NCBI GenBank assembly: GCA_022616275.1
Contig: JAKEFB010000223.1
Coordinates: 1 to 55,718, forward strand
DNA length: 55,718 bases
Reading direction: 5' to 3'
Origin: Chloroflexota bacterium
GTDB taxonomy: Bacteria; Chloroflexota; Anaerolineae; Promineifilales; Promineifilaceae
The notes beneath the pieces are model-generated. The model saw only the letters and a program-made list of their open reading frames with translations. It did no database searches and was not told where the DNA came from. The position numbers were made by a program, and so were the translations under genes. Positions within the stretch are counted from its first letter, which is position 1. Every line of letters begins with the position of its first letter. Below are positions 802 to 55,145 of the stretch, one piece after another.

Positions 802-879
802 GGGGATTGGAGATTAGAGATTGGAGATTGATTATTGAGCCCATAACCAATAACTCATACCCAATTACCAATTACCCAA
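802..879. repeat. Degenerate 7/8-mer tandem repeats between convergent gene ends
   Basis: GGAGATT/AGAGATT heptamers (about 806-832) followed by CAATTACC-type octamers (about 860-885). The second block runs into the end of the minus-strand gene, whose final codons and TAA come from it. Confidence 0.8.
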
Positions 880-2847
880 TTACCTGATTACTTCCCCCTG
901 AAACCACCTCACCCGCGGCCGCATCTGGGCTGCCTCTTCGGCCGTTATCTCCCCTGAATGGATGGCCGCCAGTTGTGCCCATGAGAAAAGATTCTGTTCC
1001 TCAATCGTCACCGGCCAGGCAAAGGGAAAAGCGGTGCGCATCGCTTCGGCCAGCGGCCGGGGCAGGGTCAGCCAGTAGCCCGTTTGCATCGCCACCGACG
1101 GCCGGGCCGGCACCAGCCGCAACTGCCGCTCCAGGCTCTGTGTGCTGAGAAACTTCAGCCACTGCCAGGTAGCCAGCGGCGCTTGGCTATACTGGCTGAT
1201 AAAACTCCCCCGCACCCACAATGGCGTAATGCCGTCAAAGCGGTCCGAGCCGGGAAACGGAACCACGCCCATCGGCCGGTTCAGCGAGTACAGCTCATAG
1301 TTGACCGGCTCCTCCACCCAGACGGCTACCCCGCCGGGCGAAATCAGGTTAATTGCCCGAAATTCCCGTTCGGCCGGCGCCAGCCCGGTGAGATCCGGCG
1401 TCACACCCGGCCGGCCGGCCAGACCGGCGTACCACTCCAGGGCGGCGACCACGCCGGCCGGCTGCAGCGGTTGCTTGCAACGGACCGTCACCGGGGGCGG
1501 GCAGGCGTTATCCCAGTTAAAGGCGTAGGAAAAAAGCGTGTCCAGGCTCTGGTCAACAAACCCCCACTCAACCTGGCCTTCGGCCGCCGCCAGGGCGGCC
1601 ACGTCTCGCCCCATCTCCGTCCACGTCCAGCGCATCGAAGGCTCGACCAGCCCGGCCGCCTGGTAGGTCACCCGGTCGTAAAAGAGCAGCCGCATGCTGG
1701 CCCCCTGGGGCATAAACCACATCCGGCCGCGCCACCAGGCCCCCTGCCAGATTTGCTCGTAAAAGTCACCCTGGTCAAAGGTTGGGTCGCTGCTGGCCAG
1801 GTCGGTCAGGTCGTAGACCAGCCCGGCGGCTAGCATCGCCTCGGTCGGCGTGACGGCCGCCCCGTCAATGCCGGCCGTAGCGTTCCACCCTAACGGATCG
1901 GCTGGCAGCTCCTCCAGGCTAATAATTTCCACGACAATGTCGGGCTGTTGTTCTCTAAAAGCGGCCGCCGCCAACTGGTACCGGGAAACATTCTCGGCCG
2001 GGACGGCAAAGCAGATGAGGGTCCAGTCCACCTGTTCCACCACTCGCTGCCGCAGTAGTTCCCAAAAGGAGTCGCCCGGTTTGCCCTGCTCGTCGAGCGC
2101 CAGCAGGCGCGGCGACGGCAGGCGTATCTCGTCTGGCGCGGCCGTCGGCTGGTAATCGGCGGCAATCGTCAGGGTAAAGGGGCGGCGCGACTCGGCAATT
2201 GTCCGTCTGACGATGGCTTCGGCTGTCTCCCACTCCCCGGTTGTCCAGCCGTGGGCCCTATTGGGTTCACCAGCCAGCAGTTCGTTCACGGTTTCAACTA
2301 TCTCTTCAGCCCAGGCCCGGTCAACCTCGTGGATGACTAGAGCGCCCCAAGGCTGTTCCAGGCGCACCGCTGGTCCCCAGTAACTTTCGGCCGGCGGTAC
2401 CTGGCGTAGCGCGCCGCCCTCCTGTTGGAAGAAAAGGACCCGCTGCCACCGCTGGTCGGCGGCCGGCCAGCTCACGTTGGCCCAGATTTCGTCGCCGTGC
2501 TGCTCGACCCGCGTCACCGTCAGGCCAGCCTGGTAAAGGAGCTGGTTTTCCGGCCGCAACTGGGCCGACAGCCAGGCCGGGTCCTGGGCCTGAGTAGCAA
2601 AAAAGCGCTCCCCGTCGCCGGCCAGGTAAGCGGCCTGCTCCTCGTCTAGCAGCGCCTGGACGCGCTGTCGCAATTCTTCTTCGCCTCGGGCCGCCTGCTC
2701 CTGGCCGGCCCGCCAGCCGGCAAAAGCCAGCAGGCCCACCAGCAGGACGATGGTGAGAACAACCAGCCAGGTTACCGGCCGCCGCCCCCGCCCCCCCGGC
2801 CGGATGTTTTCCTCCTCGCCTACCTGCCACTCCAGTTGGATACCCAT
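880..2847 (-). CDS. Membrane-anchored extracellular solute-binding protein (family 1-like)
   Basis: 655 aa. A short cytoplasmic N-terminus (1-25) with an RPGGRGRRP basic stretch is followed by one membrane helix (about 26-46) and a large extracytoplasmic part. Residues from about 270 resemble a family-1 solute-binding protein: an ICFAVPAENVSRYQLAAAAF segment, a Trp-rich centre, and a C-terminal part with WLKFLSTQSLERQLRL typical of sugar-binding proteins. Residues 50-250 have no family I recognise. It is anchored by a helix rather than by a lipobox. No permease gene is adjacent, so it may be a sensor or an orphan receptor. The final codons and TAA fall in the neighbouring repeat. No Shine-Dalgarno is visible; see the -10 element at 2856-2864. 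Confidence 0.75.
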   Translation of the reverse strand: MGIQLEWQVGEEENIRPGGRGRRPVTWLVVLTIVLLVGLLAFAGWRAGQEQAARGEEELRQRVQALLDEEQAAYLAGDGERFFATQAQDPAWLSAQLRPENQLLYQAGLTVTRVEQHGDEIWANVSWPAADQRWQRVLFFQQEGGALRQVPPAESYWGPAVRLEQPWGALVIHEVDRAWAEEIVETVNELLAGEPNRAHGWTTGEWETAEAIVRRTIAESRRPFTLTIAADYQPTAAPDEIRLPSPRLLALDEQGKPGDSFWELLRQRVVEQVDWTLICFAVPAENVSRYQLAAAAFREQQPDIVVEIISLEELPADPLGWNATAGIDGAAVTPTEAMLAAGLVYDLTDLASSDPTFDQGDFYEQIWQGAWWRGRMWFMPQGASMRLLFYDRVTYQAAGLVEPSMRWTWTEMGRDVAALAAAEGQVEWGFVDQSLDTLFSYAFNWDNACPPPVTVRCKQPLQPAGVVAALEWYAGLAGRPGVTPDLTGLAPAEREFRAINLISPGGVAVWVEEPVNYELYSLNRPMGVVPFPGSDRFDGITPLWVRGSFISQYSQAPLATWQWLKFLSTQSLERQLRLVPARPSVAMQTGYWLTLPRPLAEAMRTAFPFAWPVTIEEQNLFSWAQLAAIHSGEITAEEAAQMRPRVRWFQGEVIR

Positions 2848-2855
2848 GCCGAAAG

Positions 2856-2864
2856 AGTATCACA
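2856..2864 (-). promoter_or_regulatory. Extended -10 element (TGTGATACT), leaderless start predicted
   Basis: On the minus strand TGTGATACT ends 8 nt before the ATG at 2847, and there is no Shine-Dalgarno. A weak -35 (TTGTGT) lies 16 nt upstream. Transcription would begin 1-2 nt before the ATG. Inferred from spacing only. Confidence 0.45.
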
Positions 2865-2890
2865 TAACCACACCCCTACACAACCACTGA

Positions 2891-2905
2891 GCAACCGAAG
2901 GTTGC
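2891..2905. repeat. Small palindrome GCAACC-GAA-GGTTGC
   Basis: 6-bp arms with a 3-nt loop, ending about 10 bp from the stop codon of the minus-strand sigma-factor gene. It is followed by CCCTAC, the right half of the GTAGGG...CCCTAC palindromes seen elsewhere in the window. Confidence 0.6.
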
Positions 2906-2914
2906 CCTACACCC

Positions 2915-4114: not shown

Positions 4115-4157
4115 ACCTGCTATTTAGTTGCGATTCAGGGGGGAAAAGTTACAAAAA

Positions 4158-4210
4158 GTGATGAGCAATGAGTAATGAGGGCTCATTGCTCATCGCTCAT
4201 TGCTCATCGC
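4158..4210. repeat. GAGCAAT heptamer repeats in inverted arrangement
   Basis: GATGAGCAATGAG-type heptamers run right and are then repeated as their reverse complement (CTCATTGCTCATCGC), giving a strong potential hairpin between the aminotransferase stop codon and the sigma-gene promoter region. Confidence 0.8.
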
Positions 4211-5385
4211 TATAGCTTTGCCGCTATGCGCGCCAGCCGGTCTACCGCCCGCTCCAGGTCGCTCATGGCGGTGGCGATGGAGAAGCGGACGTGGCCCTCG
4301 GCGCTGGCACCAAAGGCGGCGCCGGGCGTGGCGGCAATGCCGGCCTCGGCCAGCAGCGCCTCGGCCAGCTCCATGCTATTTTTACGGGTATTAGGAAAAC
4401 GGGGCATAAGGTAAAAGGCCCCGTCAGGCGAAGCGCAGGCAATGCCTTCGATCTCATTCAGGGCAGCGACCATAAAGTCGCGCCGCGCCTGGTAGGAACA
4501 ACGCATCTCTTCCACGGCCTCTTGCGGGCCGTTGAGGGCGGCCACGGCCGCCTTCATGATAAAAGTCGCCGCCGAAGTCACAGCCTGGCTGTGCATCCGG
4601 GCGGCCAGCTTCATCGCCGGCGTTGGGCCAACCACCCAGCCCAGTCGCCAGCCGGTCATGGCGTAAGCCTTCGACAGGCCGTTCGTCGTCAGCGTCCGCT
4701 CGGCCATCCCCGGCTCGGCCGCCAGCGAATAATGTTGGTGGCCGTCAAAGACCAGCTTTTCGTAGACCTCGTCGGTAATGACGTACAGGTCGGCCTCAAG
4801 AGCCACCTGGGCAATGGCCTGCACCTCGGTCCGGCTCAACACCCGGCCGGTCGGGTTGTTGGGTGAGTTGACCATGATCGCCTTGGAGCGGGGCGTCAGC
4901 TTCCCCCGTAGCAGCTCGGCCGTCACGGTGAAATTGTCCTCCGGCCACAGGTCAACCGCCACCGGCGTCCCACCGGCCAGCCGGATCATCGGTGGGTAGG
5001 AGACCCAGGCCGGCGACAGGTACAGCACCTCGTCGCCGGGGTTGAGCACGGCCGCCAGGGCGATAAAGAGCGCCCACTTGCTGCCTGGCGTGACCACCAC
5101 ATCCGTCTTGGGATTGACGTGAATGCCGTTCTCGCGGGCCATTTTGCCGGCAATGGCCTCCAGCACGTCCGGCGTGCCCTTCGTTGGGGCCGGGTAGTGG
5201 GTCGCCCCGGCGGCAATGGCGTCAATGGCCGCAGCGACGACGTGAGCCGGCGTGTCAAAGTCGGGGTCGCCGCCGGCCAGGGCAATCACGTCCTGCCCGG
5301 CCGCCTGCAGGGCTTTGGCTTTGTCGTTAATGGCCAGGGTGAGAGAGGCGGGGATGCTGCCAAGCAAATGAGAAAGTTCGCGCAT
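4210..5385 (-). CDS. Pyridoxal-phosphate aminotransferase, class I/II (aspartate/aromatic type)
   Basis: 391 aa, full length for fold-type I aminotransferases. Visible motifs: PTKGTPDVLEAIA near residue 70, SPNNPTG (174-180), TDEVYEKLVFDG (204-215), Schiff-base lysine in NGLSKAYAMTGWRLGW (Lys239), and the C-terminal carboxylate-binding arginine in GHVRFSIAT. It transfers an amino group between an amino acid (probably Asp or an aromatic one) and a 2-oxo acid in the cytoplasm. ATG at 5385 is chosen over the upstream TTG because GAGGAG lies 8 nt before it. Monocistronic by layout. The substrate cannot be fixed from the sequence. Confidence 0.93.
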   Translation of the reverse strand: MRELSHLLGSIPASLTLAINDKAKALQAAGQDVIALAGGDPDFDTPAHVVAAAIDAIAAGATHYPAPTKGTPDVLEAIAGKMARENGIHVNPKTDVVVTPGSKWALFIALAAVLNPGDEVLYLSPAWVSYPPMIRLAGGTPVAVDLWPEDNFTVTAELLRGKLTPRSKAIMVNSPNNPTGRVLSRTEVQAIAQVALEADLYVITDEVYEKLVFDGHQHYSLAAEPGMAERTLTTNGLSKAYAMTGWRLGWVVGPTPAMKLAARMHSQAVTSAATFIMKAAVAALNGPQEAVEEMRCSYQARRDFMVAALNEIEGIACASPDGAFYLMPRFPNTRKNSMELAEALLAEAGIAATPGAAFGASAEGHVRFSIATAMSDLERAVDRLARIAAKL

Positions 5386-5505
5386 CAATTCTTCTCCTCA
5401 AACAAAGTTGACGGCTAATTCTAACAAACGACGGCGCATTGTCGAAGAACTAAAGTAACCAATAAACCGGCCGCCTTTCCTGTGTACACTGTCTAATCTC
5501 CCACC

Positions 5506-5589
5506 AACCTCCGGGAGGTTCGCCAACCTCCGGGAGGTTGGCGAACCTGGGACCGCGAGCATGAGGTTGGCCAGGCCAACCGCGCTCGC
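5506..5589. repeat. Cluster of three palindromes (CCTCCGGGAGG and GCGAGC...GCTCGC types)
   Basis: AACCTCCGGGAGGTT at 5506-5520, then CGCCAACCTCC-G-GGAGGTTGGCG at 5521-5543, then GCGAGC (5555-5560) enclosing GGTTGGCC-A-GGCCAACC (5565-5581) and closing with GCTCGC (5584-5589). All lie in the 295-bp divergent gap 5386-5680. The last element shares its ACCGCGAGCAT base with the one at 14396-14449. Confidence 0.85.
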
Positions 5590-6175: not shown

Positions 6176-6948
6176 TCCCGATTGAACGCATCCAGGCCCA
6201 ACTGCGCGCCAGCGCCCAGTTTTTGTTGGAGGCCGTTCCCGTTCCCCCCTTCACCTGCTTTTTCAACCCCGACAGTCTGTCGCCTTTCGCCAATTACGCC
6301 ATCCCGGACGCGCCGGCCGGAGGCGACCTGGGCCAGGAGCTGGCTGCCGTGCGGGCCACCTTTGCCGCCCGCAACCGCCGGCCGCGTTTTGAATTTTTGC
6401 AGGCCTTCGCCCCGGATCTGGCCGCCTCGCTGGAAGCGGCCGGTTTCATCGAAGAGAACCGCATCCAACTCATGCTCTGCGATCGGGAGACTTTCCGGCC
6501 GGCGCTGCCCGTGCCAGGTTTGACCATCACTCAGGTAGATAGCACAACGCCCCTAGACACCTGGCAGAGGCTAGATACCGTCCAGCGGCGCTCCTTCGGC
6601 GAGGACGCAACCCCGTTGGTAACCGAGCTGGAAGCGGAGCAGTTCCGCAACCGCTTTGGTCATACCCCCTGGTTCCTGGCCTGGCTCGACGGGCAGCCGG
6701 TCTGCACTGGTTGCCTGATGGTCCCTTACGACGGGCTGATTGAAGTAGCTGGCATCGGCACACTGGCCACTTTTCGTCGCCGGGGAATTGCCACCGCACT
6801 GACCACTCATGCAGTCCAACTGGCCTTCGACCAGGGGCTGGAAGTTGTCTTTTTAACCGCTGCCAACGCCGAGGCCGGCCGGGTGTACGAACGGATTGGC
6901 TTCCGGCCATATGGGCTGGCTCTCGTTTATTCAGGGGTTGGAGAGTAG
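6172..6948 (+). CDS. GNAT-family N-acetyltransferase
   Basis: 258 aa. The C-terminal third has the acetyl-CoA-binding core: VAGIGTLATFRRRGIATALT (motif A, R-R-x-G-I-A) followed by LEVVFLTAANAEAGRVYERIGF (motif B). The N-terminal half is less conserved, as in two-domain GNATs. It probably acetylates an amine of a small molecule in the cytoplasm; the acceptor is unknown. Coupled to the preceding gene by a 4-nt ATGA overlap. Its final residues and TAG come from the adjoining GGAGA(T/G)T repeat. Confidence 0.88.
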   Translation: MIPIERIQAQLRASAQFLLEAVPVPPFTCFFNPDSLSPFANYAIPDAPAGGDLGQELAAVRATFAARNRRPRFEFLQAFAPDLAASLEAAGFIEENRIQLMLCDRETFRPALPVPGLTITQVDSTTPLDTWQRLDTVQRRSFGEDATPLVTELEAEQFRNRFGHTPWFLAWLDGQPVCTGCLMVPYDGLIEVAGIGTLATFRRRGIATALTTHAVQLAFDQGLEVVFLTAANAEAGRVYERIGFRPYGLALVYSGVGE

Positions 6949-7000
6949 AGATTAGAGATTGGAGATTAACCAAGCTCCAAGCTCCAATCTCCGATTTACC
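6935..7000. repeat. GGAGATT/AGAGATT repeat facing its inverted copy
   Basis: GGTTGGAGAGTAGAGATTAGAG runs into the CTCCAAGCTCCAATCTCC complement, making an imperfect hairpin between the GNAT stop codon (inside the repeat) and the next start codon. Confidence 0.75.
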
Positions 7001-8355: not shown

Positions 8356-9234
8356 GTGCCTAAAGAGACAGCGCCGATAAACGTTGTGGTTCTGGGCATC
8401 ATGCAGGACGCCGGGCTGCCCCACGCCGGCTGCCGCTGTCCCCGTTGCGCCGCCGCCTTTGCCGACCCCCGCCAGGCCGAGTACGCTGCCTGCCTGGCCG
8501 TGGTAGACGGCCGCCGGCAGCCCCCGACCGTCTGGCTGATTGACGCCACGCCGGACATCAAGTACCAGCTTAACCTGCTGGCCGAGGCGCTGGGACCGCA
8601 TCCCAACCGGCCGGACCGGCTGCGCCAGCCGGATGGCCTCTTCCTGACCCACGCCCACATGGGCCACACCGCCGGGCTGCCCCACCTGGGGCCAGAGGTC
8701 ATGGAGGCGCGCGATCTGCCAGTCTACGCCCCGGCCGGGCTGGTGGAAGCGTTGCGCCAGACGCGGTTGTGGCAGCCCGTGGTCGGCAACCTGCGCCTGA
8801 TCGTGCTGGAACCTGGCCGGCCGCTGCTTCTGGCCCCCGACCTGGCCATCACTCCCATCGCTCTCCCCCACCGGGACGAAATTGGCGCGGGCACGTTTGC
8901 TTACCACCTCCAGGGGCCAACACGGTCGCTCCTTTACCTGCCGGACATTGACGGCTGGCCGCAGTGGCCGGCGGCACGGCAAACGCTGGCCGCCGCAGAC
9001 GTGGCCCTGGTAGACGGCTGCTTCTACAGCCGGGACGAACTTGGCGGCCGGACCCCGGTGGCCCACCCCCTCGTCCCGGATACGCTGGCCTTCTGCGCCG
9101 GCCTGCCCGGCCGGCTGCTCTTGACCCACTTTAACCACACCAACCCTGTCCTCGACCCCGACAGCCCCGCCCGCCAGGCTGTCCTCGCCGCCGGGGCGGA
9201 AGTAGCCTACACCGGCCAGAGCTTTAGTCTGTAA
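8356..9234 (+). CDS. PqqB-like metallo-beta-lactamase-fold hydrolase
   Basis: 292 aa. The N-terminal VVLGIMQDAGLPHAGCRCPRC with Cys26, Cys28 and Cys31, and the later DATPDIKYQ, match the PqqB branch of the MBL fold. The metal motif reads HAHMGH (99-104), with Gly where most MBL enzymes have Asp. A second His-rich site is in LLLTHFNHTNP near the C-terminus. It starts with GTG. No other pqq gene is present, so a role in PQQ synthesis is not supported; a general MBL hydrolase is as likely. The stop codon TAA opens an ATTGGTAATT repeat. Confidence 0.8.
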   Translation: MPKETAPINVVVLGIMQDAGLPHAGCRCPRCAAAFADPRQAEYAACLAVVDGRRQPPTVWLIDATPDIKYQLNLLAEALGPHPNRPDRLRQPDGLFLTHAHMGHTAGLPHLGPEVMEARDLPVYAPAGLVEALRQTRLWQPVVGNLRLIVLEPGRPLLLAPDLAITPIALPHRDEIGAGTFAYHLQGPTRSLLYLPDIDGWPQWPAARQTLAAADVALVDGCFYSRDELGGRTPVAHPLVPDTLAFCAGLPGRLLLTHFNHTNPVLDPDSPARQAVLAAGAEVAYTGQSFSL

Positions 9235-9287
9235 TTGGTAATTAAGTAATTGGTAATTGCCAATTACCCAATTACTAATTACCTCTG
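9231..9287. repeat. ATTGGTAATT repeats, inverted, covering two stop codons
   Basis: TAATTGGTAATTAAGTAATT faces CAATTACCCAATTACTAATTACC. The plus-strand stop (9232-9234) and the minus-strand stop (9275-9277, TAG) both lie in the tract. Confidence 0.85.
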
Positions 9288-12579: not shown

Positions 12580-12644
12580 TCTCTCTTGATCTCCAATCAG
12601 CGCCTCATCACTAGAATCAATCTTAATAGAAATCCCCTAATCCC

Positions 12645-13697
12645 CTAATCCTCGCCAAAACCCACACCAACAACCATGATCTGGCCGGGGCCGTCCAGGT
12701 TGCCGTCAATGGTGATCGCGGCGTCGAGCCAGCGGCGGAGGAGGTCAGCGTTAGTCAGGGTGTGCAGGGTGAGGCGGTTGGTTGTCAAGGTGGAGGTTCC
12801 GTGAGCCAGGGTCATCGGGATGAGTAGTTGGTCGGCCAGGTGCAGGTCAACGGCCGCCTGATTGTCCACAAAATCCAGCAACTCCGCAACTGCTGCTTCA
12901 GTCACCTGCTCGGCCGGAAGTCCCGGCCGGCCCAGGCTGCTGAACCCGGCCTGGGGCAGCCAGAGGAGCATACCTGCTCCTGGCCCGGCACTGCGCTCCC
13001 GTAACGGCCGGATCGTCGCCTGCAAACCGGCCTCGGTCAGGAGCTTATAGGCCCGGCGCTCCATCCGGTGGGGAATGTGGCTGGGCAGGTTTGTCACCGC
13101 TGCAATTCCTAGCACGCTGCTCTCCGGCGCCGGCTCCAGCGTGAGGCTGTGCAGTTTCTGAGAGGGATGGATCGTCGCCGTCACCAGCCCACCCCCGGCC
13201 GCCATCCAGCCCCATTCTCGCAGCGCCAGGTCAAAGAAAGCGCCCATTCGGGCAAAAACCGGCCCGGCTACCTCGGCCAGATAATGGTACGGCGGGCTAA
13301 AGGGCACAAACGTGCCACCGCTCAGCGTCAACTGCGACGAATCGCCGGCAAAGAGCAGCGGCCAGCAAACAGCCTGGAAGATGAGCGTCACCGCCCCGGC
13401 CGACACGCCGCTGGCGCTGGCCTCGGTTACGTCGAACTCATAGGCGCCGGCCCGGGGCGACCCACCTGGCCGGAACTCCAGGACAGTGGAGTTGAGTTGG
13501 TCGCCATTCACCTCGGCCCGGCAAATGGCCGCCACCGCCCGCACCGCCGTCAGGTGCTGCGGCCGCAGGCCCGGCCGGGAGCGGTTGGCACGAATCTTCT
13601 CAATGCGGAAAGGGCGGCCGGTCAACGCCGACAGGCTCAGACTCGTCCGCAACACCTGCCCGCCCCCTTCTCCCTGGCTACCGTCAATGACTAACAT
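12645..13697 (-). CDS. rtcA: RNA 3'-terminal-phosphate cyclase
   Basis: 350 aa, family length. Opens with IDGSQGEGGGQVLRTSLSLS, the RtcA signature, followed by IRANRSRPGLRPQHL (34-49). The conserved block HLADQLLIP (286-294) near the C-terminus belongs to the adenylylation site region. It converts an RNA 3'-phosphate to a 2',3'-cyclic phosphate with ATP. No rtcB or rtcR is adjacent. Start ATG 13697 has GGGAG upstream. The final Asp codon and TAG merge with a GGGATTAGG repeat. On the same strand as rnz, the other RNA 3'-end enzyme here. Confidence 0.95.
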   Translation of the reverse strand: MLVIDGSQGEGGGQVLRTSLSLSALTGRPFRIEKIRANRSRPGLRPQHLTAVRAVAAICRAEVNGDQLNSTVLEFRPGGSPRAGAYEFDVTEASASGVSAGAVTLIFQAVCWPLLFAGDSSQLTLSGGTFVPFSPPYHYLAEVAGPVFARMGAFFDLALREWGWMAAGGGLVTATIHPSQKLHSLTLEPAPESSVLGIAAVTNLPSHIPHRMERRAYKLLTEAGLQATIRPLRERSAGPGAGMLLWLPQAGFSSLGRPGLPAEQVTEAAVAELLDFVDNQAAVDLHLADQLLIPMTLAHGTSTLTTNRLTLHTLTNADLLRRWLDAAITIDGNLDGPGQIMVVGVGFGED

Positions 13698-13712: not shown

Positions 13713-13826
13713 TAGGAAATGGAGATTGGAGATTGGAGACTTCGTCCTGAGACTCAGTCCGAAGGATTAGAGATTTAGGCACTCGTTCGATCCCAATCTC
13801 CAATCTCTAATCCCTAATCTCTTCAT
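13713..13826. repeat. GGAGATT repeat with distant inverted copy
   Basis: GGAGATTGGAGATTGGAGA near 13721-13740 is matched by CCAATCTCCAATCTC near 13793-13810, with a 50-bp middle containing CGTCCTGAGACTCAGTCCG, itself a near palindrome (CTGAGACTCAG). Confidence 0.75.
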
Positions 13827-15835: not shown

Positions 15836-15901
15836 TCAGGTAATTGGTAATTGGGTAATTGTATCCTACATTCAATTACCTAATTACCAATTACCCAATT
15901 A
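15836..15901. repeat. GGTAATT repeats with inverted copy
   Basis: AGGTAATTGGTAATTGGGTAA faces CAATTACCTAATTACCAATT. The tract covers the stop codon (TAA, 15899-15901) of the MFS gene and the upstream region of the methyltransferase gene. Confidence 0.85.
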
Positions 15902-17098
15902 CTCCTTCCCCGGCAAACGCCAGATGACCAGGAGCAAGAGCAGCGGCGCACCCACGTAGACCCAGAACATGGCCGTCGTGAGCGTCGTCCATTGGGCCAG
16001 CAGGCCAAACAGCAGCGGGAAAGGAATAAAGCTAAAGAGCGCCTCCATCGCCGTCACCGTGCCGCCTCTGCCTGGGGCACTGGCCAAAGATTGCCCTTTG
16101 CCGATCGGCCAGTAAACACTGAAGAGAAAGTTGATGGGAATGGCCAGCGCAAAGCGGGTCCAGATGCCGGGCAGAAACAGCCAGGCCGGGTAGAGCACGA
16201 GCAAGCCCAGGGTAGCTAACTGCAAAATCCGCCGGGCGCTCATCACCTGGAGCCAGCGGTCCAGGACGGCCAGGCAGAGGATACCCACAGCCATCTGTAC
16301 GGCCGTGTAAACGCCAATCAAGGCCTGGCTCATCCCCACCTGTTCCCGCAGCCAGATGGCGGTAAACGTGGCCGGTGTCTCCAGGATGGTGAGCGCCAGT
16401 AGCAGGAGCAGCCAGCCCAGCGCGGCGCGATTGGCCAGCACCGCCTTCACGTTGCCGGTCAAAGCCTGGCGCAGGCTCAGGCCGGCTTGCTCGTGGCCGT
16501 TGGCTGGCGGCGGAAAGGGGGTGCGCAGAATGAGGACGGCGTAGACCAGGCTGGACAGGCCCAGGCTGACCAGCAGCCAGCGCCACTCCAGCCCCAGCCA
16601 GACGGTGGCGCTGACCAGCAGCGGGGCCAGCAGCGCCCCAACCGTATCCAGTAGCGTGGCCCGGGCAAAGATCCGGCCGGCGTTCTGCGGATAGGCCTCG
16701 ACCAGGACCACGTCGGCCGTGTGGGCCAGCGGGCCGGAGGCCAGGCCGTATATGGCAAAGCCTAGCAGCAAGATGGCAAAGGTCGGGGCCAGGCCCATGA
16801 CCGCCGTGGCCAGCCCCACCCCGGCCGCGCCCCAGGCCATCAGCCACGGCCGCTTCCAGACGTCAATCAACAGCGCGCCCACCGGCTCAATCGTGGCGGC
16901 CACGTAATTTAGCGCCAGCCCCAACAGGCTGACCTGGGTATAGCTCAGCCCCAACTGAGCGCGGATCGTCGGCATGAGGACTGCCGGCAGGCCGCTCAAC
17001 AACTCGTCAGTAAAGCGGCCGCCCAGGCCGATTAGCACCAGGCGATGAGAGATCCCCTCAGCGCGGGGGATCGGTTTGATTTGAACCTTGAGGGACAT
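15899..17098 (-). CDS. Major facilitator superfamily transporter
   Basis: 399 aa with about 12 hydrophobic helices and a central cytoplasmic loop (FPPPANGHEQAGLSLRQAL). An MFS A-like loop is modified between helices 2 and 3 (LLIDVWKRPWLMAWGAAGVG). It may export a small molecule; substrate unknown. ATG 17098 has a clear AAGGAG 7 nt upstream. The stop codon lies in an AATTGGG repeat. Confidence 0.85.
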   Translation of the reverse strand: MSLKVQIKPIPRAEGISHRLVLIGLGGRFTDELLSGLPAVLMPTIRAQLGLSYTQVSLLGLALNYVAATIEPVGALLIDVWKRPWLMAWGAAGVGLATAVMGLAPTFAILLLGFAIYGLASGPLAHTADVVLVEAYPQNAGRIFARATLLDTVGALLAPLLVSATVWLGLEWRWLLVSLGLSSLVYAVLILRTPFPPPANGHEQAGLSLRQALTGNVKAVLANRAALGWLLLLLALTILETPATFTAIWLREQVGMSQALIGVYTAVQMAVGILCLAVLDRWLQVMSARRILQLATLGLLVLYPAWLFLPGIWTRFALAIPINFLFSVYWPIGKGQSLASAPGRGGTVTAMEALFSFIPFPLLFGLLAQWTTLTTAMFWVYVGAPLLLLLVIWRLPGKE

Positions 17099-17875: not shown

Positions 17876-17946
17876 CCCTTTGTGATCTCTCTGTGAATCT
17901 CTGTGTCTTCTCCGTGTTCTCTGTGTTCCCCTTACCCCCGGGGAAC
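17876..17946. repeat. CTCTGTG tandem repeats ending in palindrome GTTCCCC...GGGGAAC
   Basis: Degenerate CTCTGTG(A/T) units (about 17886-17927) abut the palindrome GTTCCCC (17925-17931) / GGGGAAC (17940-17946). The TAA stop of the DUF1501 gene is in its loop. Confidence 0.75.
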
Positions 17947-19284: not shown

Positions 19285-19372
19285 GGGGCAGGTGGCAGGT
19301 GGGTAAGAAACTTGCAGACTTGCACACTTGCATACTCGCAAACTCGCAAACTCGCACACCCGCACACCCCTA
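19285..19372. repeat. ACTTGCAC/ACTCGCAA octamer tandem repeats
   Basis: Eight or nine octamers such as ACTTGCAC, ACTTGCAT, ACTCGCAA and ACCCGCAC between the DUF1800 stop (19370-19372) and the DUF1501 start. The same octamer family recurs at 21598-21680. Confidence 0.85.
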
Positions 19373-20926: not shown

Positions 20927-20995
20927 ACTGAAGTTAAAGTTAGAGTTAGAGTAAACTCTCTAACTCTAACTCAAAACTCTAACTCTCACTCACCA
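20927..20995. repeat. GTTAGA hexamer repeats, inverted
   Basis: AAAGTTAGAGTTAGAGTAAA faces CTCTAACTCTAACTCAAAAC. The TAG stop of the next minus-strand gene is inside the second arm. Confidence 0.85.
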
Positions 20996-25841: not shown

Positions 25842-26145
25842 TATGAATATTTATCTTCGAGATGCGACTGAATGGGGCGTACTAGGTATTGTAGGGATAA
25901 GCCTGGGTAGTGTTTTAATCACTTTATCTACGCTATTGGGGTGGCATAAAGCTCGAGTGATTGATTTTCTTTTGAATCAATTGAGCCTGGTACTCATACT
26001 TCTGGCAATCATGGGTTTAGGAAGAAGCGCCCTATCAGGAAGCCTGAGCGAACGGGATGTGTCGTTTATACCTTTATTTCGGGTAGGGTTTATTCTGGTA
26101 TTATTAGGCCATCACCATAGCACCCCTCCCCCCTCAGATGAATAA
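25771..26145 (+). CDS. Small hypothetical membrane protein, AT-richer than neighbours
   Basis: 124 aa with about four hydrophobic helices (GIAIMLTSGALFFLVFGLA; WGVLGIVGISLGSVLITLST; LLNQLSLVLILLAIMGLG; FIPLFRVGFILVLLG). Not recognised. GGGGAGG lies 7 nt upstream of the ATG, inside the ATPase remnant. Base composition is clearly poorer in GGCCGG words and in GC than its neighbours, suggesting later arrival. The stop codon is at the foot of the terminator hairpin at 26144. Confidence 0.6.
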   Translation: MYYTGIAIMLTSGALFFLVFGLASMNIYLRDATEWGVLGIVGISLGSVLITLSTLLGWHKARVIDFLLNQLSLVLILLAIMGLGRSALSGSLSERDVSFIPLFRVGFILVLLGHHHSTPPPSDE

Positions 26146-26178
26146 GTGCCAGGCACCTGGTAGATGCCTGGCACTTTT
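26144..26178. terminator. Bidirectional intrinsic terminator
   Basis: Perfect 12-bp arms AAGTGCCAGGCA (26144-26155) and TGCCTGGCACTT (26165-26176) with a 9-nt loop, flanked by TTTT on the plus strand (26175-26178). It lies between the convergent genes ending at 26145 and 26183. Confidence 0.8.
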
Positions 26179-28822: not shown

Positions 28823-28851
28823 CCACCCTCTTAGGGTGGCTAACTCCTGAC
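28811..28851. repeat. 41-bp perfect palindrome overlapping a stop codon
   Basis: Arms of 19 bp (28811-28829 and 28833-28851; GTCAGGAGTTAGCCACCCT and its complement) with a 3-nt loop. Contains the TAG (28820-28822) of the epimerase gene. No T-run follows. Confidence 0.9.
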
Positions 28852-41415: not shown

Positions 41416-41425
41416 TTAATCTCCA

Positions 41426-41453
41426 GTAGGGGCACGATGCATCGTGCCCCTAC
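41426..41453. repeat. 28-bp perfect palindrome GTAGGGGCACGATG / CATCGTGCCCCTAC
   Basis: 14-bp arms, no loop. Supplies the TAG stop (41450-41452) of the minus-strand gene to its right. Same family as 52078-52105 and 53914-53941. Confidence 0.95.
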
Positions 41454-42598
41454 TCCCCACAGCTCTCAATCCGCACCACGGTCAGACCGTTAAACCAGCA
41501 GAACAGTTTGTAGTCACCTGTGGTCGAGGCCGCCTCCATCAGCACGTAACTATCCTGTTGGGTCACGCGGCGAACCTGGGGTGGGCCGGCGAATCGGCCG
41601 CCCCGCTCCTGCAACCAGGCGCGCCACTCGTCGCTCACCCGGGGCACGCAACCCCGGCAATCTTCCGGGACCGGCTCACCGCTAATCAGGCTGGCCAGGC
41701 CAATCGTGTAGGGCAGCGAGGCGTCGTAGCAAAAACTCAACTGCTCGTTTACCACCCGGCAGTTGATCCAAGATCCGCTGTCAAAATGAACGACGACAAA
41801 GGTCGTAGCCGTCTCTAGTTCCACGCTACCGATAAACAGGGTGTAATTGCCCTCAAGCTGATCCCGGACGCCGTGAATGGCGTCGTAGTTGATGCCCTCT
41901 GCCCGGCTCAGGGCAAACAGATCACCCTCGTACGTCCGGCCAGTCTGGATAACCTCGTTGACCAACCAGAGAGTGCGGGACGAGTAACTGCCACTGACAA
42001 TGTTGCCGGTGACATAAGCGGCCAGGACGACCAGGGGCAGGGGCAACAATAACAAGAACCAGGTGACGCAGCCCGGCCGCTTCTGGGACTTCAGGCTGCT
42101 GTAAATCCCTTCCAGGCGGTAGTCCTGCAGAATAGCCAGCGTGGCCAGGGTCAGAAGCATTAGAAAACCGGCCAAAATGAGAGCCACCACAGAACCGCCC
42201 AGGAAAGGATAAATCGGCAATCCCCAAAAGCGCCGGTCGGACAACCAGATCGCCAGGGTCCGAAGCTGGTTAGGTTGGTAACCAATGATGACGACGATCA
42301 CAGCCGCCGTGGCCAGCCACAGCAGAAAAGTAATCCACCCTCGGGCAATTCGAGCCGTAAGCCAGCCTATCAGGCCGGCCAGCAAAAAGATCAGCGTGGC
42401 AGCAACGATCACGCTGGCATAAGCTGAAGCCGCCGGGATCCCGGACAGAGCGGCCAATTGCGGTCCCCAAACGCCCAGGACAATAGCCAGGCCCAGCGCC
42501 AGGCCGTTCAAAAGGCCCAACCGGCGATAGAAGACACGTTGCCGTTGCTCTTCACTCTGATCCAACCAGGGAGAAGTTACGTGGGATGATGATGCCAT
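41450..42598 (-). CDS. Hypothetical membrane protein with extracytoplasmic C-terminal domain
   Basis: 382 aa. Five helices in residues 28-225 (GLLNGLALGLAIVLGVWG; VIVAATLIFLLAGLIGWLTA; WITFLLWLATAAVIVVIIGY; VVALILAGFLMLLTLATLAI; WFLLLLPLPLVVLAAYVTG), then about 155 residues outside with several cysteines (INCRVVNEQLSFC; EDCRGC; FCWFNG; ESCGE). Family not recognised. It lies between two permease pairs on the same strand. The TAG is provided by the 28-bp palindrome. Confidence 0.72.
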   Translation of the reverse strand: MASSSHVTSPWLDQSEEQRQRVFYRRLGLLNGLALGLAIVLGVWGPQLAALSGIPAASAYASVIVAATLIFLLAGLIGWLTARIARGWITFLLWLATAAVIVVIIGYQPNQLRTLAIWLSDRRFWGLPIYPFLGGSVVALILAGFLMLLTLATLAILQDYRLEGIYSSLKSQKRPGCVTWFLLLLPLPLVVLAAYVTGNIVSGSYSSRTLWLVNEVIQTGRTYEGDLFALSRAEGINYDAIHGVRDQLEGNYTLFIGSVELETATTFVVVHFDSGSWINCRVVNEQLSFCYDASLPYTIGLASLISGEPVPEDCRGCVPRVSDEWRAWLQERGGRFAGPPQVRRVTQQDSYVLMEAASTTGDYKLFCWFNGLTVVRIESCGE

Positions 42599-42672: not shown

Positions 42673-42691
42673 GAGTTGGTTAGTCCAACTC
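42673..42691. repeat. Palindrome GAGTTGG-TTAGT-CCAACTC with a stop codon in its loop
   Basis: 7-bp arms. The TAA of the cytochrome gene (42680-42682) is in the 5-nt loop, and the last three codons (Glu-Leu-Asp) are in the stem. Confidence 0.75.
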
Positions 42692-43411: not shown

Positions 43412-43504
43412 CCGCGTCCGAAAAGAGAAGCGGGCCACTCGCGCGGCCCGCCATCGTCCTGAGCGCATATATGCGCCGCCCGTCGTCCGTCGTCTAACAG
43501 ACCA

Positions 43505-47820: not shown

Positions 47821-47946
47821 TTTCTAAAGCCTCCTCCATAGTGTTAGCAAACTTTCTAGGTTTCAATAAACGTGTGAAAACTGAGCTTCTCTTTTTGATC
47901 TACGTTGCCGTTGCCTCACCTCCTTTATTTGGAGCTATCAGCTAAG

Positions 47947-47971
47947 TAGAACGATTTTCAAAATCGTTCTA
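47947..47971. repeat. 25-bp palindrome TAGAACGATTTT-C-AAAATCGTTCTA
   Basis: Perfect 12-bp arms. On the minus strand its first three bases are the TAG stop of the DppF-like gene (47969-47971). Same family as 50288-50308. Confidence 0.92.
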
Positions 47972-48979
47972 CAAGAACTTCTCGGCGTGGTGGCAGGCTA
48001 CCCAATGTAGCCGCCCGGCCGTGCCCAGGTCGCGGAACTCCGGGTCCACCTCCCGGCAGACCTCCGTCGCATACGGGCAGCGCGGGTGGAACCGGCACGC
48101 CTTCGGCGGATTCGCCGGACTGGGTACGTCCCCCTCCAGAATGAGCCGCTTCCGCTTGGCCTCCTTGTCCGGGTCTGGGATCGGGATCGCCGACAACAAC
48201 GCCTGGGTGTAAGGGTGCAGCGGCTTCTCAAACACCGCCACCCGGTCGCTCAGCTCGACAATTCGCCCCAGGTACATCACCGCCACCCGGTCGCTGATGT
48301 AGCGCACCATTGAGAGATCGTGAGCGATGAACAGGTACGTCAGCCCCAACTCCGCCCTCAAATCGTCCAACAGGTTGACCACCTGGGCCTGGATAGACAC
48401 GTCCAGGGCCGAGATCGGCTCGTCGGCCACGATGAACGACGGGTTGGTCGCCAGCGCCCGCGCGATGCCTATGCGCTGCCGCTGCCCGCCGGAGAACTCG
48501 TGCGGGTAGCGGTTGATAAAGTATGGGTTCAGCCCCACCAGCCGCAGCAACTCCTGGATCCGTTCTTTCCGGCTCTGGCTGTCCCCGATGTTGTGGATCT
48601 GTAACGGTTCGCCAATGATGCTGCCTACCGACATCCGTGGGTTCAGCGAAGCGTAGGGATCCTGGAAGATCATCTGCATGTGCCGTCGCGCCCGCCGCAA
48701 CTCGCCCTTTCCCAGGCCGGTCAGCTCTTTGCCCTGGAAGTACACCTCACCCCCCGTTGGTTCCAGCAATTGCAAAATCGTCCGCCCGGTGGTGGACTTG
48801 CCGCAGCCACTTTCCCCGACCAGCCCCAACGTCTCCCCTTTGTAGACGTTGAAGCTGACTCCGTCTACCGCCTGCACCGCGCCCACCTGCCGTCGCAGCA
48901 CCCCCCGATAGATGGGAAAGTGCTTCTTCAGGTTTTTCACTTCGACAATGACTTCTTGCCCGTTCGTCTGCCCGTTCAT
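47969..48979 (-). CDS. Peptide ABC transporter ATPase, DppF/OppF-like
   Basis: 336 aa. Walker [10 protein letters not shown] (55-63), Q-loop [13 protein letters not shown], signature [15 protein letters not shown], Walker B FIVADEP, and H-loop IAHDLSMV. The oligopeptide C-terminal extension has [20 protein letters not shown] with cysteines typical of the Opp/Dpp iron-sulfur segment ([14 protein letters not shown]). Its ATG overlaps the stop of the DppD-like gene as ATGA. Confidence 0.96.
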
Positions 48980-50139: not shown

Positions 50140-50142
50140 TGT

Positions 50143-50232: not shown

Positions 50233-50287
50233 CAAACACGCTGCCATTGTACCCTGCTCCTGGCTACACGACAACGAATCGAAGGTC

Positions 50288-50308
50288 GAACAATTTTGAA
50301 AATTGTTC
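50288..50308. repeat. 21-bp palindrome GAACAATTTT-G-AAAATTGTTC
   Basis: Perfect 10-bp arms. With the following TAC it reads GTAGAAC on the minus strand, providing the TAG (50308-50310) of the gene to its right. Confidence 0.9.
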
Positions 50309-52047
50309 TACAGCGCGCCGTAAACCAAAACGCCGTACACGGCCATCGTCAGCAGGCCATCTATAGCGCCATAGAGCAAAATGAAATAGAGCAGCGAGTT
50401 TACGTCGCGACGGTAAGTAAAATGCCAGGCCGTCACGATAGCGCCGATCATAATGGCGAGTGGAACGATAATCTGTAAGGGAAGTTGCATCCAGCCAGGC
50501 AGGTGAAGCCAGGCTGAAAAGGGCGCGTAGGCCAGGAGGCCCGGAATAGAAGCTACTTTCACTACCCAAAACGCAGCGACGGCCAGAGCAACGCTGACGA
50601 GCGTGCCCGGACTGGTCAATTTCTCCTCCCGCCGGCGCAGCACCGACGTCAACAACAGCAAGACGCCCGGCAAAATCAGCCACAGACTCACGGCAATCGG
50701 GGCTAACAGCGCCCCCGTCAGCAGGCCAAAAAGCGTCTCGGCCGCCAGCCGGCCCACGTCGTCGCTACTGAGGCTACGCAGCGCCTGCCGCAGGTCGGGC
50801 GCGGTGCTGGCAAAGTAGACGGTAAACCCTGAGCCGCCTGGCTCTAACCAGGTAGCGTAAAGGTAGCCGGCCGGATCGCTCAACACGGCCGGCGCGGTCG
50901 TGGCCGAGGAGGTAAAGCTCAACAACTGGTACGAGGTCGGACCCTCCTCCTCCAGGAAAAGCAGGCCGGCCTGGCTGGCTACCTTATTCCACTGGAAGCG
51001 GGCCTGGACCTGCACAGCCAGGGCCAGTTCGCCGGCCGGGGCCGGGTTAGGAAAGAGGCTGGCCGGCGTGGTCGAGCCTTCGCTGTAGCTCTCCAGCAGC
51101 ACCCGGGGGCCGGCCAGCAGCCCGCCGCCGGCCGCTTCTTCGTAAGGCAGGTCAGCCTCGGCCGGAACGCGCAACAACTGCGGCCGGTTCAACGCCGGCC
51201 GGCCGAGCGGAAAGGCCACATGGTTGGTGGACACGCTGCCGGCCGCCGCTCCCGTGCGGACAGCGATATTCCAAAACAGGTAAGCCTGCTCATGGTCCAG
51301 CCCCAGCCACGGCCCGTCCAGTTGGCTGGTGACGTTGACCGAAAACTCCGCCACGGCCGTTTCCTGGCCTGGTTGGAACACGCCTTCCGGGTAGGCGGCG
51401 TAATAAAAACGGGTCTGGCCGAAGCCCTGCGGGTAGTGAGCCCAGATAGCGTTCAGCGTCCCCTCATCGTCAAACCGCAACACCGGGCGGATACCGGCCT
51501 CGTCAACGACGACCACCTCCCCGTCTAATTCGCCCAGGGGCAGGGCGTACAGCCCTGGTTCGCGGCGCGCCGTAGCGAACCAGACGGCCGCCTGGCCACG
51601 GGAATTGACGGCGACATGGTACGATTCCACCTGGTAATCGCCCGACAACACCTGGGGGGGCGAAACAACGCGGCCGCTTTTGTCCAGCCGGGCCTGAAAC
51701 AGGCGGCGGTCGCTGAGCCAGAACAACTGCAACTCGCGGCCGTCCCAAAAGAGCAGCGGCTTATCCGGCTGGCTCAACGCCTGATCCAGCTTTTGCTGCC
51801 AAACAACGCGCGCCTGCCGGTCCAGCGCCAGGACTTGAAGTTGCAATGCCTCGTCCTCCCCGCCCACCAGCAGCAGGTAAACGGTGCCGGCCTCGTCCAG
51901 GGCCATAGATACCGGGTCCGGGATTTGGGCCGTACCCACCCATTGCGCCCGGCTCCAGCCAGGGGCGTTGAGCCACAACCGCCCGGCCGGCCCACTGCAA
52001 GCCGCCAGGCACAACGCCCCCAACAGAAAAATAAGATGTTTCTTCAT
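50308..52047 (-). CDS. Lipoprotein with beta-rich outer domain and C-terminal membrane helices
   Basis: 579 aa. Lipobox LAAC (Cys17). Residues 35-405 are beta-rich with repeated blocks such as MALDEAGTVYLLLVGG, VAVNSRGQAAVWFATARR, RFDDEGTLNAIWAHYPQGFG and LSDPAGYLYATWLEPGGSG, the look of a beta-propeller, though no family is recognised. Residues 425-579 contain about five helices (LFGLLTGALLAPIAVSLWLI; LPGVLLLLTSVL; LVSVALAVAAFWVVKVASI; LQIIVPLAIMIGAIVTAW; LLYFILLYGAIDGLLTMAVY). A lipid anchor plus C-terminal helices is an odd topology. It lies among peptide-transport genes; role unknown. Confidence 0.72.
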   Translation of the reverse strand: MKKHLIFLLGALCLAACSGPAGRLWLNAPGWSRAQWVGTAQIPDPVSMALDEAGTVYLLLVGGEDEALQLQVLALDRQARVVWQQKLDQALSQPDKPLLFWDGRELQLFWLSDRRLFQARLDKSGRVVSPPQVLSGDYQVESYHVAVNSRGQAAVWFATARREPGLYALPLGELDGEVVVVDEAGIRPVLRFDDEGTLNAIWAHYPQGFGQTRFYYAAYPEGVFQPGQETAVAEFSVNVTSQLDGPWLGLDHEQAYLFWNIAVRTGAAAGSVSTNHVAFPLGRPALNRPQLLRVPAEADLPYEEAAGGGLLAGPRVLLESYSEGSTTPASLFPNPAPAGELALAVQVQARFQWNKVASQAGLLFLEEEGPTSYQLLSFTSSATTAPAVLSDPAGYLYATWLEPGGSGFTVYFASTAPDLRQALRSLSSDDVGRLAAETLFGLLTGALLAPIAVSLWLILPGVLLLLTSVLRRREEKLTSPGTLVSVALAVAAFWVVKVASIPGLLAYAPFSAWLHLPGWMQLPLQIIVPLAIMIGAIVTAWHFTYRRDVNSLLYFILLYGAIDGLLTMAVYGVLVYGAL

Positions 52048-52077
52048 GGCCTATTGTCATCGCTCCCAACAACAAAA

Positions 52078-52105
52078 GTAGGGGCACGAACTATCGTGCC
52101 CCTAC
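52078..52105. repeat. 28-bp palindrome GTAGGGGCACGA-ACTA-TCGTGCCCCTAC
   Basis: 12-bp arms with a 4-nt centre; variant of the element at 41426. A CTCTAACTCTAG repeat follows (52108-52123), then a smaller palindrome GTTTTGGC-AGG-GCCAAAAC (52127-52145). Confidence 0.92.
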
Positions 52106-52159
52106 CCTGACTCTAACTCTAGCCGAGTTTTGGCAGGGCCAAAACCTGGCTCTGGCTTC

Positions 52160-52801: not shown

Positions 52802-52845
52802 TCGGCCATCCTTATAACCAATTACCCAATTACTTAACTACTTTT

Positions 52846-53877: not shown

Positions 53878-53890
53878 TGCTCTTCTCCCT

Positions 53891-53941
53891 GTAGGGGCAC
53901 GATGCATCGCGCTGTAGGGGCATGATGCATCATGCCCCTAC
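53891..53941. repeat. Tandem pair: degenerate and perfect GTAGGGGCA palindrome
   Basis: 53891-53913 is a decayed copy (GTAGGGGCACGATGCATCGC...) and 53914-53941 a perfect 28-bp palindrome (GTAGGGGCATGATG / CATCATGCCCCTAC). Its last base is part of the TAG stop (53941-53943) of the DppB-like gene, giving TAGTAG. Confidence 0.93.
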
Positions 53942-54924
53942 TAATCGTAACGGATGCGTGGGTCTAACCAGGCGTAGAGAACGTCCACAAATAGATTACC
54001 GGCCACCAGCAAAACGCCGTAAATCAACGTCAGGCCGGTCAGCAGAAAGTACTCTCGCTGCTGGACGCTGGCAATGAACCAGCGGCCCATGCCGTTGAGG
54101 GCAAAGATTTGCTCGACGATCAGGCTGCCGGTCACCGCCCCGGCGATCAGCGGCCCCAACAACGTGGCCACCGGGATCATCGAGTTCTTCAAGGCGTGGA
54201 CGATAATGACCGCCGATTCGCGCAGCCCCTTGGCCCTGGCCGTGCGGATGTAGTCGGCCGAGAGCACGTCCAGCAGGCCGGCCCGCGTCAGCCGGGCGAT
54301 GCCGGCGGCGTAGGCCGTCCCCAGAGCAAAGCCGGGCAAGACGGCGTGCTTTAAGAACTCCGACGACAGAAGGTCACGGGGTTGGGGAAAAATCCCCAGG
54401 AAGAAAGGCGGTTCAGCGCCCCAGTTGATAGCCGGAAACCAGTTCAGGTTAACATAAAAGATGAGGATTAGTAGTGGTCCTAATACCAGGCTGGGCACCG
54501 AGGCAGACAACACAGCCACAAAGGTCGCGGTGTAGTCAACGAGTGAGTTGTGCTTCAGAGCGGCGATAATCCCGGCCGGCACGCCAATGGCAAAGCCCAG
54601 GAGAACGGCGATGCTGCCCAGTTGGAAGGAGACAGGGAAGCTCTGGGCAACGATATCGTTGACGTCCTGGCTCTGGTTGCGGAACAGGGGGCCTAAATCC
54701 CCTTTGAGCAGGTTCTGCATGTAGAGAAAGAACTGCTCCCAGAGAGGTCTGTCCAGGCCATAGCGGCGTTCCAGGATTTGCCGGATGTGCGGAGGCATGG
54801 ACCGCTCGCCCACGGTGTCAAACGGGCCGCCCGGCGTGGCGTGGATCATCACGAACGTAGCCAGGACGATCAAAAAGATAACCGGGATGGCTATCAATAA
54901 ACGGCGAATAATGTAGTTGATCAT
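53941..54924 (-). CDS. Peptide-type ABC permease, DppB-like (pair 3)
   Basis: 327 aa. N-terminal IIRRLLIAIPVIFLIVLATF, RYGLDRPLWEQFFLYMQNLL, EAA loop DYIRTARAKGLRESAVIIVH, NSMIPVATLLGPLIAGAVTG and tail DVLYAWLDPRIRYD. GGGAGG lies 5 nt before ATG 54924. The upstream 299-bp gap to the binding-protein gene holds only palindromes and hexamer repeats. Confidence 0.95.
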   Translation of the reverse strand: MINYIIRRLLIAIPVIFLIVLATFVMIHATPGGPFDTVGERSMPPHIRQILERRYGLDRPLWEQFFLYMQNLLKGDLGPLFRNQSQDVNDIVAQSFPVSFQLGSIAVLLGFAIGVPAGIIAALKHNSLVDYTATFVAVLSASVPSLVLGPLLILIFYVNLNWFPAINWGAEPPFFLGIFPQPRDLLSSEFLKHAVLPGFALGTAYAAGIARLTRAGLLDVLSADYIRTARAKGLRESAVIIVHALKNSMIPVATLLGPLIAGAVTGSLIVEQIFALNGMGRWFIASVQQREYFLLTGLTLIYGVLLVAGNLFVDVLYAWLDPRIRYD

Positions 54925-54961
54925 ATGAACCTCCCACCTGGTAACGGGCCACCAACTGCTT

Positions 54962-55027
54962 AACCTCCTGGAGGTTCAAGCGATGGTCGCCGGGCCGCCC
55001 GGCGCAATCGCCAACCTCGGGGAGGTT
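54962..55027. repeat. CCTCC...GGAGG palindromes around a GC-rich inverted repeat
   Basis: AACCTCCTGGAGGTT (54962-54976) and AACCTCGGGGAGGTT (55013-55027), with GCCGGGC-C-GCCCGGC between them. Confidence 0.8.
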
Positions 55028-55076
55028 ACACATTATACAAAGGAACAGGTGGTTTACAACCTGAACTACAGTTGTC

Positions 55077-55145
55077 AAACCCCGCAGGTCGGGGCACAAA
55101 ACGTGCCCGGGGCACGTTCCGTGCCCTCGGAGACCTGCGGGGTTT
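55077..55145. repeat. Nested 69-bp inverted repeat
   Basis: Outer 14-bp arms AAACCCCGCAGGTC (55077-55090) and GACCTGCGGGGTTT (55132-55145) enclose GGGCAC / GTGCCC arms and a perfect ACGTGCCC-G-GGGCACGT centre. Lies between the binding-protein and permease genes, like the palindrome at 45660. Confidence 0.85.

Follow-up and report, generated by a model that had tools for sequence, protein, structure and literature searches.

Short non-coding repeats of many unrelated sequences crowd against the stop codons of genes in a Chloroflexota bacterium of the family Promineifilaceae. We describe them in a stretch of 55,718 nucleotides (positions 1 to 55,718 of contig JAKEFB010000223.1, assembly GCA_022616275.1; hereafter the window) and in a larger sample of the same genome. 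The elements are of two kinds: short palindromes, and arrays, i.e., tandem runs of a 7- or 8-nt word, many of which fold into hairpins with an inverted copy of themselves. Their placement on the stop side of the gaps between genes is real and non-random, and there are several readings of its cause. We favor, with a probability of about 0.52, selection acting on mobile and slippage-made DNA, with elements settling in gap DNA that can be spared.

The genome is an 8.53-Mb draft of 309 contigs with 5.5% contamination. Our sample covers 1.88 Mb of it in 41 contigs or parts of contigs, which were not randomly drawn. A home-made hexamer caller yielded 1,481 genes in this sample; compared with the annotated stops of one annotated plasmid, it agreed in the eight calls printed. 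As relatives we used another genus of the same family (G001, 449 kb) and smaller syntenic pieces from G003, G009, and G010. Copies of one family are not independent of each other, and neither are pairs drawn from one gene.

When each element is moved at random inside its own gap (500 shuffles), 81.5 ± 8.1 element edges are expected between −15 and +10 nt of a stop, with a maximum of 102. We observed 208. Near starts there were 46 edges, with 64 expected. The excess at stops is found for both kinds of element, in palindromes (113 vs. 42 expected) as in arrays (121 vs. 54). An initial annotation of the window had held that unrelated repeat families sit non-randomly at stop codons and had proposed to measure stop-to-repeat distances against shuffled positions; on 1.88 Mb, this measurement agrees with it. 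Overlap with the stop codon itself is not in excess (110 seen vs. 118 under a null that allows intrusion into genes).

The 60-nt flanks of genes give a similar order. Elements score in 33% of 741 downstream flanks, 20% of 887 upstream flanks (the two overlap in tandem gaps under 120 bp), 5% of 202 mid-gap segments, and 0.8% of 1,380 coding segments, and in under 1% after dinucleotide shuffling. G001 repeats this order, with 25% of 189 downstream flanks, 12% of 223 upstream flanks, and 2% of 347 coding segments. Of the downstream arrays, 91 of 140 start between −3 and +5 nt of the end of the stop (−3 being the first position read), and 50 of 113 upstream arrays finish 13–19 nt before the start codon.

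Are these stops created by the elements? The initial annotation had raised the possibility that elements insert at gene ends and replace the original stop. For the letters of the stop codon this is often right. TAG makes up 48% of the 119 stops reached by an element, 34% of the 210 followed by one, and 27% of the 624 without one (reached vs. element-free, p = 1e-5). The position of the stop, judged by homologous proteins, is mostly old. The same annotation had suggested comparing C-termini with orthologues to see whether residues were replaced, and in general they are not: most homologues stop on the same codon or close to it, with exceptions. Among 112 reciprocal best pairs, 20 have the stop of this genome's gene inside an element, and the unaligned C-terminal lengths in these pairs differ by −5 to +5 residues, in 10 of them by none. 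The 36 genes with a stop in an element differ from their best homologue by a median of 0 residues (p = 0.46 against 351 element-free genes), and 11% of them are shorter by more than 5 residues, compared with 16% of the element-free genes.

The genes that end on a GTAG palindrome can be followed individually. A gene of the SDR family ends at the same codon as all four readable orthologues, and a patatin-like gene within 0–2 codons of five out of five. For SmpB, 22 relatives have a match and the stop was read in 12 of them; 10 end at the same codon and two end one codon further on, on TAA (7), TAG (4), or TGA (1). Compared with weaker homologues, four further genes differ by +1, −2, −10, and −17 residues. 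With a YitT-family gene discussed below and the genes ending at 47969 and 50308, which are level with three and two orthologues, 7 of 10 such genes end within two codons of their homologues and three are shortened.

The window itself is richer in elements than the sample. Under a fixed score (tandem self-match of at least 10 or hairpin of at least 9, within −12 to +48 of the stop), an array or hairpin is found at 21 of the 37 gene ends of the window where the gap reaches 30 or more, and at 329 of 953 gene ends (35%) in the genome sample. All 17 sites at which the initial annotation had seen a repeat or palindrome at the stop do carry one. The score recovers 16 of them, the exception being 42680, with a stem of only 7 bp, and adds five more (13823, 26183, 43505, 52846, and 55224). 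The elements of the window are as follows.

802..884: a G-rich GGAGATT-type arm, then C-rich CAATAACC and CAATTACC arms, which together take up the convergent gap from the stop at 801 to that at 880; orthologues of the gene ending at 801 end level with it in G001, G003, G009, and G010.
4161..4211: a two-armed array hairpin of GATGAGCAAT that abuts the TAG at 4210; orthologues are level in four genera, and the array found there is of GGAGATT in G009 and of the GATGAGG type in G010.
6941..6991: a two-armed GAGATT array that contains the TAG at 6948; similar DNA occurs at many other places in G001, G009, and G010.
9231..9282: a two-armed GTAATTG array hairpin that occupies the whole of a 40-bp convergent gap, bounded by the stops at 9234 and 9275.
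12631..12651: an 8-bp array with the stop at 12645.
13793..13822: a GAGATT array that follows immediately on the TGA at 13823, one of the five added sites.
15839..15902: a two-armed GTAATTG array at the stop at 15899.
17881..17946: a palindrome with a 7-bp stem holding the TAA at 17932, then a ACACAGAGA-type array.
19310..19370: an 8-mer array of the TGCGAGTT type that abuts the TAG at 19370; the G010 orthologue has a different array at the same stop.
20938..20991: a two-armed AGTTAGAG array with the stop at 20979.
26144..26176: a AAGTGCCAGGCACC palindrome a few nucleotides after the stop at 26183, also added.
28811..28851: a 41-bp palindrome that encodes the last residues of the gene and contains its TAG at 28822.
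41425..41454: a GTAGGGGC...GCCCCTAC palindrome whose TAG is the stop at 41450; the gene is two residues shorter than a 45%-identical homologue.
42673..42691: a palindrome with a 7-bp stem, whose loop contains the TAA at 42680; it stays under the score cut-off.
43474..43494: a GACGACG array after the stop at 43505, also added.
47946..47972: a GTAGAACGATTTTC palindrome whose TAG is the stop at 47969; orthologues are level in three out of three cases, every one ending in TAA.
50288..50311: a GTAGAACAATTTTC palindrome with an incomplete far end, whose TAG is the stop at 50308; orthologues are level in G009 (TAA) and G010 (TAG).
52815..52843: a GTAATTG array just after the stop at 52846, also added.
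53891..53941: two GTAGGGGC palindromes in a row, beginning on the G of the TAG at 53941.
55172..55204: a AGTTAGAG array hairpin that lies 19 nt beyond the stop at 55224, the last of the added sites.

Two of these palindromes differ from their first description. At 50308 the TAG does serve as the stop, and the CTAC at the far end is absent. At 53941 the TAG of the palindrome had been taken for the stop. The gene ends on its own TAG, of which the palindrome shares only the G, and the palindrome's TAG is the next codon. The G010 orthologue ends in ...gattag, with TAG at the same codon and without the element.

Some repeats of the window lie within called genes. A 57-bp near-perfect palindrome (43307–43363) falls in the first part of the called gene 42680–43438, whose real start may lie downstream of the palindrome. 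At 14616–14759 and 36954–37059, called coding sequence contains repeats of 18 and 24 bp that are unlike the intergenic arrays. A search of the window against Rfam gave no match at the gathering score.

The arrays share a polarity and a size of word, not a word. Among downstream arrays scoring at least 12, 127 of 146 have a period of 7 or 8. Inspection of 60 of 141 gaps gave the words GAGATTR, GTAATTG, GTTATTG, GATGAGC, GACGACG, GTGTCAG, GAGGACT, GATTTTA, and TGCGAGT, among others. Read from the gene into the gap, arrays after stops are G-rich in 122 cases, C-rich in 12, and neutral in 32. On the gene strand, arrays before starts are mostly C-rich, in tandem gaps (50 vs. 11 G-rich, 31 neutral) and in divergent gaps (16 vs. 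3). G001 behaves alike (G-rich to C-rich 13:5 after stops, 2:13 before starts), and arrays in the middle of tandem gaps have no strand bias (29:30). That arrays are G-rich after stops and C-rich before starts would follow if each element were a hairpin whose first arm is G-rich. The G-rich arm comes first in 67 of 68 array hairpins, one being neutral and none C-first, and in 13 of 13 in relatives; a stricter threshold gives 60 of 64, with four neutral. Even in 25 gaps whose outer arrays are not complementary, G-left/C-right occurs 13 times, the reverse three times, and other combinations nine times. Since the G-first order holds whatever the word, and since non-complementary gaps show it 13 to 3, a single word-blind process could write the arrays: at a nick or break on either strand of the gap, slippage would lengthen a G-rich 3′ strand end, which would then be copied on itself, and the resulting DNA would be kept only as far as the edges of the stop codon and the Shine–Dalgarno region. 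We put this forward tentatively and consider it rather unlikely.

The palindromes resemble repetitive extragenic palindromic (REP) sequences: they are short, have many similar copies, and lie mostly outside genes. Their families include ACCCTCCCGGAGGTT, AGGTGACAGTCACCT, GTAGGGGC...GCCCCTAC, and GTAGAGACGTTGC. Two families have 41 copies with up to one mismatch (control 2) and 17 copies (control 0), respectively; the 34 GTAG elements analyzed below are 17 of the 41 and all 17 of the second. Two GTAGGGGC palindromes were seen deep inside called genes, read through in frame as VGAR... (L207:1501–1528 and, in this genome, C158:67002–67029).

The genome has six matches to Y1 transposases. Four were tested against protein family models: two score 77.5 and 75.8 bits with the model for REP-associated tyrosine transposases (RAYTs), NF047646, below its cut-off of 80, and the other two lie above the cut-off of the IS200/IS605 model NF033573. 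The loci of both RAYT-like genes, and a sister locus, hold copies of the ACCCTCCCGGAGGTT and AGGTGACAGTCACCT families. At L023, L024, and L025 (contigs C308 and C22 of this genome), RAYT-like or Y1 transposase genes stand amid copies of these two families, which may thus have a mobilizer of their own.

Are the elements kept at the same stops in relatives? Out of the 112 orthologous pairs, we kept 52, leaving out pairs at a contig end and pairs in which either gap measures less than 40. An element is present in both members in 13 pairs, in this genome only in 21, in the relative only in four, and in neither in 14. Presence at orthologous stops is thus not significantly conserved in these 52 pairs (odds ratio 2.2, p = 0.35), which does not favor the suggestion in the initial annotation that the shared position reflects a common function of place. 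In several cases relatives have other words at the same stop. The orthologous SmpB and YitT-family stops, for example, carry other word arrays in other genera (L246, L251, L253, and L255).

The families are also patchy in their wider distribution, since the GTAG palindrome GTAGAGACGTTGC occurs in 11 plasmid records, all cyanobacterial, and a run of three GAGATTR words in 8 of 301 sampled genomes of the phylum, this one included. There are 343 matches to this run here and 29 in another genome of the same class (G099). A genome of another class (G021) has the run in both orientations within 92 bases. The plasmids with GTAGAGACGTTGC belong to Nostoc, Anabaena, Trichormus, and Planktothrix and match at 90–100% identity. 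Cyanobacteria are known for runs of short tandemly repeated repetitive heptamers (STRR), together with very small mobile palindromes, in one genome. A replicate on 150 kb of three Nostocaceae plasmids yielded a single array among 77 downstream flanks and another among 90 upstream ones, numbers too small for a judgment.

Selection on mobile and slippage-made DNA would account for these observations as follows. Two kinds of small, multiplying non-coding element would occupy the short gaps of this genome, REP-like palindromes (including the GTAG...CTAC group) and runs of 7- or 8-nt words, and both would be gained and lost between genera. The palindromes would be mobile, and the arrays would arise by slippage and foldback copying. 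Either kind would settle in any part of a gap that is dispensable, and the most dispensable part would reach from the last base of the stop codon to just before the Shine–Dalgarno region. With dispensable DNA starting right at the stop, unrelated families would come to lie flush with old stops. An element that lands on the stop codon itself could survive, as GTAG or the shifting frame of a 7-mer would supply another in-frame stop in the old place or close to it. Several results weigh against this explanation. In long tandem gaps (250–600 bp), 22 of 51 elements fall in the fifth nearest the stop, and in gaps of at least 150 bp palindrome coverage drops from 9.5% at 20–40 nt to 1.4–2.0% past 100 nt. 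Spare room alone fails to predict such crowding, unless mid-gap DNA is constrained. The G-first order of the array hairpins is not explained by position. A palindrome scan of the six transposase loci in this draft assembly found no GTAG palindrome. Finally, the YitT-family gene on a GTAG palindrome ends 3–18 codons before all seven orthologues read (seven genes in six relatives), and the two genes that are 10 and 17 residues short of weaker homologues are further cases in which the stop does not look old.

Crowding just after stops, in long tandem gaps too, is what we would expect if the hairpins were kept to end or protect transcripts or to stall the last ribosome, in place of U-tract terminators. 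We regard such an RNA 3′-end function as possible, though clearly less probable than selection on spare DNA. Short divergent gaps (60–120 bp) are poorer in elements (6 in 27) than convergent (23 in 51) or tandem gaps (119 in 258), as this function would have it. Long divergent gaps, which have no 3′ end, carry as many elements as other long gaps (31 in 59), and the pair of palindromes at 53941 lies inside a likely operon, between the two Opp-type permease genes that end at 53941 and 52846. Moreover, the 5′ edges of genes also carry elements, although some of these upstream flanks overlap downstream ones, only about a third of eligible gene ends have an element, and conservation at orthologous stops is not significant. 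Palindromes near stops are G-first in this genome (47:21, vs. 23:41 elsewhere, p = 0.0002; counted by family 27:9 vs. 17:21, p = 0.01), a polarity that relatives do not repeat (10:4 near stops, 15:7 far from them). REPs within 15 nt of E. coli stops are described as stalling ribosomes, according to work cited in PMC12306157 as far as that account goes. The palindromes here also lie just after the upstream gene's stop, a likeness of position. The original work on such stop-proximal E. coli REPs is reportedly that of Liang et al. in 2015.

U-tract hairpins had been called nearly absent from the window, which is about right for the genome: where the gap measures at least 80, only 50 of 629 stops (8%) are followed by one, so that they mark few 3′ ends here. 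This scarcity would suit a replacement by other hairpins. They are slightly commoner after stops than in gene-side edge reads of divergent gaps (33 of 636, 5%; z of about 2), and dinucleotide shuffling leaves 19 and 15, respectively. If the elements stood in for terminators, U-tract hairpins should be rarer beside them, and they are not (23 of 173 with an element, 78 of 568 without). The palindromes themselves do not look like rho-independent terminators, with at least five T in the next 8 nt for only 17 of 183 palindrome–stop pairs. The hairpins may have come to act at mRNA 3′ ends at a later stage, in stability, ribosome stalling, or weak termination.

The stop codon could also itself be a target. 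For IS200/IS605-type single-strand transposases, a short target becomes the flank of the element, and at least the GTAG...CTAC palindromes might insert at TAG-like sites in this way. In 14 of the 34 elements the TAG serves as a gene's stop, which concerns 16 gene ends. Every other offset is seen three times at most, only two offsets lie below −1, and only two elements lie deep in coding sequence. Most of the genes concerned (7 of 10) end where their homologues do, within two codons, and several orthologues already end in TAG. Given the three shortened genes, in-frame landings over a range of codons could also build such a peak, and a TAG target is hard to see at 47969 or in most SmpB orthologues, given their stops. 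With no GTAG palindrome seen in the scan of the transposase loci, and the word arrays left uncovered, we consider targeted insertion improbable. Even less likely, and in our view very improbable as a general rule, is that elements insert in the last codons and so create new, shorter C-termini. The same three genes fit this idea, as do the gene ending at 28822, whose unaligned tail is one residue compared with five in G001, and the lower agreement within two residues at 50% identity or more (9 of 16 genes with an element, 78 of 108 without). The median difference of 0 among the 36 genes and the seven GTAG genes that end within two codons of their homologues speak against it.

Both halves of what we see have published relatives. 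As far as the parts of Di Nocera et al. (2013; PMC3733652) on these points go, GTAG-tagged REPs are short palindromes, mostly less than 20 bp from 3′ ends in the plotted genomes, that often supply a TAG stop to flanking open reading frames; they occur in Cyanobacteria and Chloroflexi, among others, and are partly linked to RAYTs. In contrast to the unpaired tag at one end described there, GTAG and CTAC are here paired to the ends, and the RAYT-like genes stand amid other palindrome families. The heptamers GGGNATC and GGGGA(C/T)T of Xanthomonas and Nostoc are tandem and mostly intergenic, and lie within 50 bp of stops (sense) or before starts (antisense), some overlapping the stop; that account, in the portion concerned, gives their function as unknown (Rehm et al. 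2015; PMC4692102). Our arrays are likewise G-rich in sense after stops and antisense before starts, the polarity reported in that portion. They differ in having many unrelated 7- to 8-nt words, and in array hairpins that are G-first without any C-first case. A quadruplex is rejected as the general reason for the arrays: a motif of four G3 tracts is found in only 4 of 140 arrays after stops, and a G2 motif in 30. The TAACTGA repeats of Beggiatoaceae (PMC4679880, as partly consulted) are also tandem 7-mers, with stops in all frames and some overlapping the stop codon, but they are one word and lie mostly just before start codons. In full-text searches of open-licence literature, outside which most subscription papers fall, we met no report of an array rule that holds over many words or of G-first array hairpins, and we claim no priority.

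What the genome adds is a separation of place from sequence: words and palindromes of many unrelated kinds have a single placement in common, and the arrays a single polarity. As placement and polarity are shared, explanations built on one motif, such as a quadruplex or a single transposase, cannot be general. For annotators, the letters of the stop codon at such gene ends may be derived from a repeat, while the end of the protein is old in most cases. Should a single cause lie behind the G-first rule, the question why bacterial heptamer arrays hug genes with a fixed polarity would become testable.

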